From: an uncultured Pelagibacteraceae bacterium | GTDB lineage: Bacteria; Pseudomonadota; Alphaproteobacteria; Pelagibacterales; Pelagibacteraceae | Assembly: GCA_902540545.1 (NCBI GenBank) | Contig: CACBMY010000001.1 | Span: 105,077 to 148,572 of the forward strand | Length of the DNA: 43,496 nt | Reading direction: 5' to 3' | In this document: one piece after another, positions 11,021 to 30,787 of the stretch | How the letters are laid out: every line of letters begins with the position of its first letter | Position numbering within the stretch: the first letter of the stretch is position 1 | Made by a program: the position numbers and the translations under genes | The notes under the pieces: generated by a model | Databases searched by the model: none | Seen by the model: only the letters and a program-made list of their open reading frames with translations | Told to the model about the DNA's origin: nothing

Positions 11021-11070
11021 ATTTTAAAAATTAAATATGAAAAAATTATTTTCAACAAATATCCTTGCGA

Positions 11071-11081
11071 ATAATTATTAT
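11071..11081. promoter_or_regulatory. Putative Fur-superfamily box 1 (ATAATTATTAT)
   Basis: 5-1-5 palindrome ATAAT-T-ATTAT, matches the core of TGATAATNATTATCA/TTATAATNATTATAA boxes. Confidence 0.45.
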
Positions 11082-11100
11082 TTACGCATTTTTTTTGCGA

Positions 11101-11111
11101 ATAATTATTAT
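11101..11111. promoter_or_regulatory. Putative Fur-superfamily box 2 (ATAATTATTAT)
   Basis: Same palindrome in second copy of the direct repeat. Confidence 0.45.
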
Positions 11112-11152
11112 TACTACAAATTTTCCTTATTAAATTTTTCCTAAATACTTAT

Positions 11153-11167
11153 TGATAATGATTATTA
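11153..11167. promoter_or_regulatory. Putative Fur-superfamily box 3 (TGATAATGATTATTA)
   Basis: 7-1-7 element one base from TGATAATNATTATCA; overlaps the DUF2061 stop codon. Confidence 0.45.
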
Positions 11168-14260: not shown

Positions 14261-14282
14261 TATTTTTTATCTCCTTTAGTAT

Positions 14283-14297
14283 TAATAATTATTCTAA
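14283..14297 (-). promoter_or_regulatory. Putative Irr/Fur-family operator, distal copy
   Basis: TAATAATTATTCTAA (+ strand) upstream of katG; shares ATAATTATTCTAA with the second copy 23 bp away. Confidence 0.5.
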
Positions 14298-14304
14298 TTC
14301 CTTT

Positions 14305-14321
14305 TTTATAATTATTCTAAA
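14305..14321 (-). promoter_or_regulatory. Putative Irr control element (ICE-like) overlapping the katG -10
   Basis: Reading minus: TTTAGAATAATTATAAA, a 7-3-7 inverted repeat with one mismatch. Confidence 0.6.
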
Positions 14322-14333
14322 GAAGATTGTCAA
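14305..14333 (-). promoter_or_regulatory. Candidate sigma70-type promoter of katG
   Basis: Reading minus: TTGACA (14333-14328), 17-bp spacer, TATAAA (14310-14305); AAAGGAGAT RBS before ATG at 14260. Confidence 0.7.
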
Positions 14334-14367
14334 TAAGTCAGAATATTTATGATTCAATTTTGGAAAC

Positions 14368-14778
14368 TTAGTCTTCTAATTTTACTAAAACTTCGACTGA
14401 TTTAATTTTTTTTCCAGGAATAGATTTTTGAATTTCTATCGGCCCTACATCTTCATTTTTAAGATCAATAAGCTTTTCCTCTTTAACATCAAAAAAATGG
14501 TGATGATCTGTGACATTTGTATCAAAGTAGGTTTGATTAGAATGTATAGGAATTTCTTTTAGATATCCTTTTTTATGAAAAGCATGAACTGTATTGTAAA
14601 CAGTTGCTAAAGAAACTTTCTCTCCAGTTTTGTCTTTAATTAAATTGAATAAGTCGTTTATTGTGAAATGGAAAGTTTTATCTCTATTAAATAAAACTTC
14701 GCATATATTTATTCTTTGTTTAGTTGGTCTTAAGCTAGAGTTTCTTAGTTTTTCAATAAATTCTTGTTTACTTGTCAT
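14368..14778 (-). CDS. irr: Fur-superfamily regulator, Irr-like (heme/iron-responsive)
   Basis: LRPTKQRINICEVLFNRDKTFHFT, VSLATVYNTVHAFHKKGYLKEI, TYFDTNVTDHHHFFD resembles Irr; ATG at 14778 preferred over ORF-track TTG at 14784; next to fabA as commonly seen for irr in alphaproteobacteria. Confidence 0.8.
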   Translation of the reverse strand: MTSKQEFIEKLRNSSLRPTKQRINICEVLFNRDKTFHFTINDLFNLIKDKTGEKVSLATVYNTVHAFHKKGYLKEIPIHSNQTYFDTNVTDHHHFFDVKEEKLIDLKNEDVGPIEIQKSIPGKKIKSVEVLVKLED

Positions 14779-14784
14779 TAGCAA

Positions 14785-14851: not shown

Positions 14852-15352
14852 ATGAAAAAAAGTTCCTTTAATTACAACGAACTAATTGATTGCGCTAACG
14901 GTAAGTTATTTGGTCCAGGTAATGCAAAATTACCTTCTCCACCAATGCTAATGTTTGATAGAATTACAGAAATAACCGAAAGTAAGGGTTTTTATAAAAA
15001 AGGATCTATGAAAGCCGAACTTGATATTAAAGATAATTTATGGTTCTTTGATTGTCATTTTAGAGAAGATCCAGTAATGCCTGGTTGTCTTGGTTTAGAT
15101 GCTATGTGGCAGTTAGTTGGCTTTTTTCTTGGTTGGCTTGGAAATCCAGGAAGAGGTAGAGCATTAGGTGTAAGCACTGTAAAATTCACCGGGGAAGTTC
15201 TTAAAAATGTCAAAATGGCAACATATGAAATAGATATGAAAAGAATTCTTGTTAAAGGAGAAACAACTGTAGGTCTTGCAAATGGAATATTGCTTGCTGA
15301 TGGAAAAAAGATTTATAGTGCAGAAAATCTTAAGGTAGGATTATTTAAATAA
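14852..15352 (+). CDS. fabA: 3-hydroxydecanoyl-ACP dehydratase/isomerase
   Basis: [45 protein letters not shown]. Confidence 0.97.
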
Positions 15353-30367: not shown

Positions 30368-30787
30368 TTATTTTTTTTTAATACCGTATAGTTCTAATTT
30401 ATGATCAACGAGCTTGTAGCCATATTTATCAGCAATTTTTTTTTGCAATTCTTCGATTTCCTCATCAACAAATTCTATTATTTCTCCAGTTTTAATATCT
30501 ATCAAGTGATTATGATCATCATTTAGCTCATATCTTGCTTTGCCAGACTTAAAATCATGTTTTGTTAAAATTCCAGCTTCTTCAAAAAGTTTGACTGTTC
30601 TATAAACTGTCGCAATACTAATTTTAGAATCTATTTGTGAGACCCTATTATATAGCTCATCGACATCTGGGTGGTCAGACTCTCCATATGTTTTTTTAGA
30701 TTCGGATATTACTCTTGCAATTATCCTTCTTTGATCTGTAAGTTTTACTCCATTTTTTTGACATTTTTCTTCAATAGTTTCTAACAT
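30368..30787 (-). CDS. fur: Fur-family metalloregulator (Fur/Mur type)
   Basis: GVKLTDQRRIIARVISE, HPDVDELYNRVSQIDSKISIATVYRTVKLFEEAGIL, YELNDDHNHLIDIKTGEIIEFVDEEIEELQ. Confidence 0.9.
   Translation of the reverse strand: MLETIEEKCQKNGVKLTDQRRIIARVISESKKTYGESDHPDVDELYNRVSQIDSKISIATVYRTVKLFEEAGILTKHDFKSGKARYELNDDHNHLIDIKTGEIIEFVDEEIEELQKKIADKYGYKLVDHKLELYGIKKK

Follow-up and report, generated by a model that had tools for sequence, protein, structure and literature searches.

The core promoter of the catalase-peroxidase gene katG in the window (the whole 43,496-nucleotide stretch of Pelagibacteraceae DNA analyzed here) carries an ICE-type operator whose 15-bp part is perfect in nearly all irr-bearing SAR11 katG promoters. 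What we observed is the sites, where they lie, how well they are conserved and how they track with irr; from this we infer Irr binding, repression and a relieving signal, and we regard the following proposal as probable. An Irr dimer, encoded just upstream, would bind the box spanning the katG spacer and -10 and, within the window's clade, also a second box over the transcription start, keeping RNA polymerase off katG; it would further repress its own gene through a box at the irr start. Inactivation of Irr would lift repression, the likeliest route being its oxidation or loss at the His-cluster metal/heme site as peroxide or heme rises.

The window lies in an assembly of 816 kb that is 67% complete, and its KatG is 99% identical to KatG in Pelagibacteraceae single-cell genomes. 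Local gene order comprises fabA-fabB-fabI on the plus strand, divergent from irr, katG and an Asp/Arg-hydroxylase-like gene, which follow one another on the minus strand (Table 1); fabA is a conserved neighbor that marks the irr slot. The sequence-only reading had placed the regulator downstream of katG. It is in fact upstream and collinear (irr 14784-14368, katG 14260-12023), on the same strand and separated from katG by a 107-bp gap, with the ATG at 14778 as the likelier irr start. The box before irr lies just past a TATAAT, and 67/94 SAR11 loci have a perfect box no more than 60 bp from the irr start, so that irr is probably autoregulated through it.

On the other side of katG, the Asp/Arg-hydroxylase-like gene (PF05118; 11407-12003, minus) starts 19 bp past the katG stop and is perhaps co-transcribed with it. 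At 11066-11167, where no ORF reaches 90 aa, the Fur-box-like TGCGAATAATTATTA occurs twice, 30 bp apart, together with TGATAATGATTATTA.

Table 1. Coordinates of promoter elements, boxes and genes in the fabA-irr-katG region of the window.
Feature	Position	Strand	Basis and remarks
katG -35, TTGACA	14333-14328	minus	Sequence; kept in relatives, 15-17 nt before TATAAA
katG -10, TATAAA	14310-14305	minus	Sequence; shared with the core operator (its right half)
Core ICE-type operator, TTTAGAATAATTATAAA	14321-14305	minus	Sequence; covers katG spacer and -10
Second box, TTAGAATAATTATTA	14297-14283	minus	Sequence; 23 bp downstream of the core box, over the predicted transcription start
Degenerate third box, 3 mismatches	14338-14352		Directly upstream of katG -35
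katG ribosome binding site, AAAGGAG	14271-14277	minus	Sequence
katG, catalase-peroxidase, 745 aa	12023-14260	minus	NF011635 1226 bits, TIGR00198 1143 bits, both above cut-off
irr, Irr-type Fur-superfamily regulator	14368-14784	minus	PF01475 above cut-off
Box before irr, TTAGAATAGTTTTAA	14786-14800	minus	Downstream of TATAAT at 14817-14812; overlaps irr start
fabA	14852-15352	plus	TIGR01749 above cut-off; divergent from irr; same neighbor in relatives

Re-reading the sequence showed that the coordinates originally given for the katG promoter, with its 17-nt spacer, and for the inverted repeat over spacer and -10 are exact. The core operator is an imperfect palindrome with an ICE-like left half (TTAGAAT) and a right half (ATTATAA) shared with the -10. 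Compared with the ICE palindrome TTAGAAYNRTTCTAA, one half is perfect and the other, TTATAA, is part of the -10. Perfect ICE palindromes occur in the katG promoters of relatives (L070, L165, L172) and in rubrerythrin (rbr) promoters.

The second copy of the half-palindrome, noticed earlier 23 bp downstream of the core box, was likewise borne out by the sequence. With katG transcription predicted to begin ~7 nt past the -10, the second box would cover the first ~15 transcribed bases. Tandem sites are present in the window as proposed, but the arrangement is limited to its own clade and near relatives: close relatives share the 23-bp spacing, the second box is lost or degenerate in some, and elsewhere in SAR11 the promoter has either one core box or an additional box above the -35. 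The degenerate third box of the window is likely a remnant of an upstream box found in relatives; it lies at the spacing of 30-33 bp at which L057, L062, L067 and L163 have an intact counterpart.

Phylogenetic footprinting was performed on katG upstream regions from SAR11 genomes that were picked for the similarity of their KatG, irrespective of the box, and a perfect box was searched within 150 bp of katG; two contig-edge loci (L183, L184) were scored as irr-positive from adjoining sequence. Perfect TTAGAAYNRTTNTAA was identified in 101/103 irr-positive SAR11 loci, and in 28/30 after removal of near-duplicates. The sequence-only reading had staked its case on conservation of the repeats in orthologous katG loci, and it came through this comparison intact. 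Box positions averaged 1.76 bits of information, versus 0.49 and 0.36 in the flanks, and the outer TA positions are also conserved, which extends the palindrome to ~23 bp in many lineages. Even SAR11 genera with a KatG no more than 53-60% identical to the window's (L208-L221), where katG is again next to irr, have kept the box, and so has a second family in which the neighbor of katG is a tRNA-like sequence and the genome encodes irr at a non-adjacent position (L205-L207). Conservation therefore tracks the katG promoter rather than mere synteny.

Among katG loci without irr, only 1/16 with readable upstream DNA carried a perfect box (1/12 non-redundant). Complete genomes (G001, G007, G009 and G158 among others) contain katG with no detectable irr. 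The two exceptions among the 16 are a perfect box in G389, an 83% complete genome, and an eroded box in G355; the remaining loci have nothing nearer than 3 mismatches. The box is gone in G280 and G090, where katG directly adjoins fabA as though irr had been cut out from between the two genes. SAR11 genera g2-g4 (L187-L201) retain katG without irr and without any ICE box.

Fisher tests of box against irr gave 5e-16 for all loci and 2e-7 for the non-redundant set, in genomes that are related to one another. On the KatG tree, ~5 independent irr contrasts were available (mean 4.3 concordant and 0.2 discordant), a number with which a sign test cannot reach 0.05; because of these few contrasts, the association is strong but phylogenetically thin. 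The steric repression of katG by Irr proposed by the sequence-only reading stands as the best reading, since the site lies on the core promoter, is conserved in orthologues and is largely absent without irr, with binding itself a prediction. The box without detected irr in G389 counts against it.

The tracking with irr also bears on which protein would occupy the boxes. Two Fur-family proteins are encoded in the genome, and Fur-family boxes are similar 7-1-7 palindromes, so another member such as the Fur at 30368-30787 might bind them. We consider this very unlikely, as the box follows the presence of irr and adjoins irr in most genomes, and the half-sites of rbr promoters (TTAGAA/TTCTAA) are of Irr-box type. 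Binding of Irr to TTAGAAATATTCTAGA has been demonstrated (PMC6956336).

A chance palindrome in AT-rich DNA can be practically dismissed. The motif is not in excess genome-wide, with 288 occurrences of the 15-mer at 2 mismatches versus 387 for a reversed-pattern control, and 3 versus 5 perfect occurrences, a result that would suit such an origin and because of which our case rests on position and conservation rather than on the motif alone. However, a shuffled katG upstream region has a perfect box with a probability of ~0.001, yet the box occurs in 28 of the 30 non-redundant irr-positive loci and is much more conserved than its flanks, a conservation that already refutes chance. Dinucleotide shuffling of the 107-bp irr-katG gap yielded at least one site at ≤1 mismatch in 67 of 5000 trials and two such sites in none (0/5000).

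For want of an excess over the reversed-pattern control, a wider Irr regulon based on genome-wide motif counts was dropped. In irr-positive SAR11 genomes scanned as a whole, perfect boxes recurred only as a pair on either side of irr, ~480 bp from each other, which gives no sign of a broader Irr regulon in SAR11. In G011, two perfect palindromic ICE copies lie 129 bp apart in an ORF-poor stretch (L265:1469-1612), ~0.8 kb from a gene for a SpoIIE-type phosphatase.

The gene behind the operator differs among SAR11 genomes. In relatives without katG, fabA is divergent from irr and irr is followed by rubrerythrin (PF02915, 107 bits), with the same boxes in the same slot. The rbr promoters have a box just above the -35, often with another over the -10 at 31-bp spacing, a spacing also found in several katG promoters. 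Across 397 sampled SAR11 genomes, katG was detected in 234 and irr-linked rubrerythrin in 131, with no co-occurrence (0), so that 365/397 contain one or the other; among irr-positive genomes the figure is 332/335. In other alphaproteobacteria, irr was followed by a rubrerythrin 81-87% identical to that of SAR11 in 25/29 loci, which are the best-scoring ones and no random sample; of these 29, 9 had a perfect ICE in the intervening gap and 11 a divergent fabA. The simplest history would be an ancestral module of fabA divergent from irr, ICE and rbr, in which some SAR11 lineages swapped rbr for katG and kept the operator.

Phylogenetic analysis of KatG placed the SAR11 proteins in separate positions (L028, L208-L221, L205-L207), with the window's lineage nested among Bacteroidota-type KatGs and another lineage far off. 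This topology suggests that SAR11 katG was likely acquired horizontally, in an uncertain number of events. A single clade for all SAR11 KatGs was rejected (p-AU 0.015; reduced set, with the group named after the tree was seen), and a single clade for the two main SAR11 lineages was not rejected (p 0.14; reduced set); because of the latter, repeated recruitment of katG is suggested only. The presence of katG in most offshore SAR11 genera was already known (PMC12636525), and SAR11 strain HTCC7211 is reported to carry a catalase gene (PMC6775983).

Related arrangements were found outside SAR11. A metagenome-assembled genome titled Gammaproteobacteria (L071:5995-8595) encodes a KatG 74% identical to the window's, with a perfect ICE upstream and a convergent Irr-like gene just downstream of katG; it is possibly a relative of the donor or a mislabelled alphaproteobacterial bin. 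A perfect ICE also lies upstream of katG in Reyranella and an uncultured alphaproteobacterium, and a near-perfect one in Sulfitobacter (L086, L096, L124), so Irr control of katG may reach beyond SAR11.

The identification of the regulator as Irr-type, made earlier from the sequence alone, agrees with its NCBIfam ranking, in which Irr models score well ahead of PerR and Fur models (IrrA 127 bits, Irr 118, best PerR model 62). Both Irr scores are below the equivalog cut-offs (127 versus 150, 118 versus 170), a point against Irr repression, and the best is 65 bits above PerR. The neighborhood is of Irr type, with fabA divergent in the window and the downstream rbr replaced by katG. Ca. P. ubique has been published as encoding Fur and Irr (PMC2864753).

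Residue-by-residue alignment to 2fe3 matched all five iron ligands of Bacillus subtilis PerR (H37, D85, H91, H93, D104) in SAR11 Irr. The residues H39, D88, H94-H96 and D107 (P0001 numbering), including the His cluster HHH, are invariant in 94/94 SAR11 loci. The CxxC structural zinc motif was found in 0/94 SAR11 Irr loci; with the PerR ligands present and CxxC absent, SAR11 Irr may work like PerR without being classed as PerR. An N-terminal Cys-Pro heme regulatory motif, as in B. japonicum, likewise occurred in 0/94. Many Irr proteins lack this motif, so its absence does not decide Irr membership. The corresponding non-heme site of B. japonicum Irr consists of H63, D111, H117, H119 and D130, and the heme-bound protein undergoes heme- and H2O2-driven self-oxidation at PerR-like residues (PMC4700492).

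Two signals are candidates for the same sites. Under classical iron/heme logic, Irr would build up at low iron or heme and shut katG to save heme, and heme excess would destroy Irr and turn katG on. The best family match being Irr, KatG being a heme enzyme and the His cluster being invariant all fit this account. However, expression of rbr (SAR11_0399) in Ca. P. ubique rose 1.57-fold (p 0.025) under iron limitation, with no significant change in Irr protein (PMC2864753); we take SAR11_0399 to be the irr-linked rbr because each rbr-bearing SAR11 genome searched has one match. The lack of the Cys-Pro motif in all 94 loci and the fact that both alternative genes encode peroxide scavengers, only one of them a heme protein, also count against the iron/heme account, which we consider possible rather than probable.

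The rise of rbr speaks against simple low-iron repression and is compatible with a PerR-like peroxide switch. It runs counter to an iron/heme-sparing rationale, and the PerR-like variant that the sequence-only reading gave in brackets is at least as consistent. The rise is modest and could reflect an indirect effect or activation from the box above the -35. Changes of rbr in sulfur-limited stationary phase, in which mRNA and protein ratios disagree (PMC5069961), indicate that other controls on rbr exist.

Activation rather than repression through the boxes would accord with this rise and with those promoters, of rbr and in some cases of katG, in which a box sits immediately above the -35; where an intact katG box lies only above the -35 (L165, L183), activation is possible. 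By the title of Rudolph et al. 2006 (cited in PMC2864753), ICE serves positive as well as negative control in B. japonicum. In the window, by contrast, it is the -10 and the start that lie under intact boxes, and the box above the -35 is degenerate. Repression is predicted from this coverage, and the Irr-repressed mbfA, whose 5′ end lies inside the Irr box, supports repression from a start-site box (PMC3413700). We consider activation by Irr unlikely.

Control of katG by OxyR was lowered as a candidate. None of 17 SAR11 genomes exceeded the NF008361 cut-off (best 61 bits versus 329). As this threshold passes only 1/14 control genomes, a divergent OxyR may have escaped it.

Returning to repression by Irr, we tentatively suggest that SAR11 Irr, descended from a global iron regulator, now acts only locally, as a peroxide switch of the PerR-like kind. 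The genes recurrently under its control would be irr and one exchangeable scavenger, with the operator staying in place through the swap of diiron rubrerythrin for heme KatG, perhaps more than once, and the boxes decaying upon irr loss. SAR11 bacteria are among the most abundant in the sea and are often discussed as relying on others for H2O2 removal. A scavenger behind an Irr-type operator in the irr-bearing SAR11 examined makes control of peroxide defense directly testable in the absence of a recognizable OxyR, and iron/heme status and peroxide are predicted to be integrated at one promoter. The locus further illustrates clearly, in nature, how an operator can be retained while the regulated enzyme is replaced. 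We found no publication linking Irr to katG or rbr in SAR11; the ICE survey of Rodionov et al. 2006 lay outside our search, and priority is uncertain.

Among known systems, Irr/ICE regulation in Rhizobiales and Rhodobacter (bfr, mbfA, ccpA, sufA and others) resembles the window in its Irr-type regulator, its TTAGAA half-sites and its repressor sites over promoter or start (PMC3413700, PMC4902296, PMC6956336). It differs in target: the window's is katG, and katE of R. sphaeroides neither carries an Irr box nor is bound (PMC3413700). In mycobacterial furA-katG, as in the window, an autoregulated Fur-family gene lies directly upstream of katG (PMC2630230). FurA, however, is described as binding upstream of furA and as co-expressed with katG, whereas the window katG has its own boxed promoter, and in SAR11 the regulator is Irr-type and the slot can hold rubrerythrin. 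B. subtilis PerR-katA likewise has a peroxide scavenger behind a 7-1-7 palindrome, and PerR and SAR11 Irr share all five iron ligands; SAR11 Irr differs in lacking the CxxC zinc motif, in its ICE-type half-site and in having Irr rather than PerR as its closest family. Relative to the alphaproteobacterial irr-rubrerythrin pair, the window differs by carrying katG where rbr would stand and by an operator over the -10.
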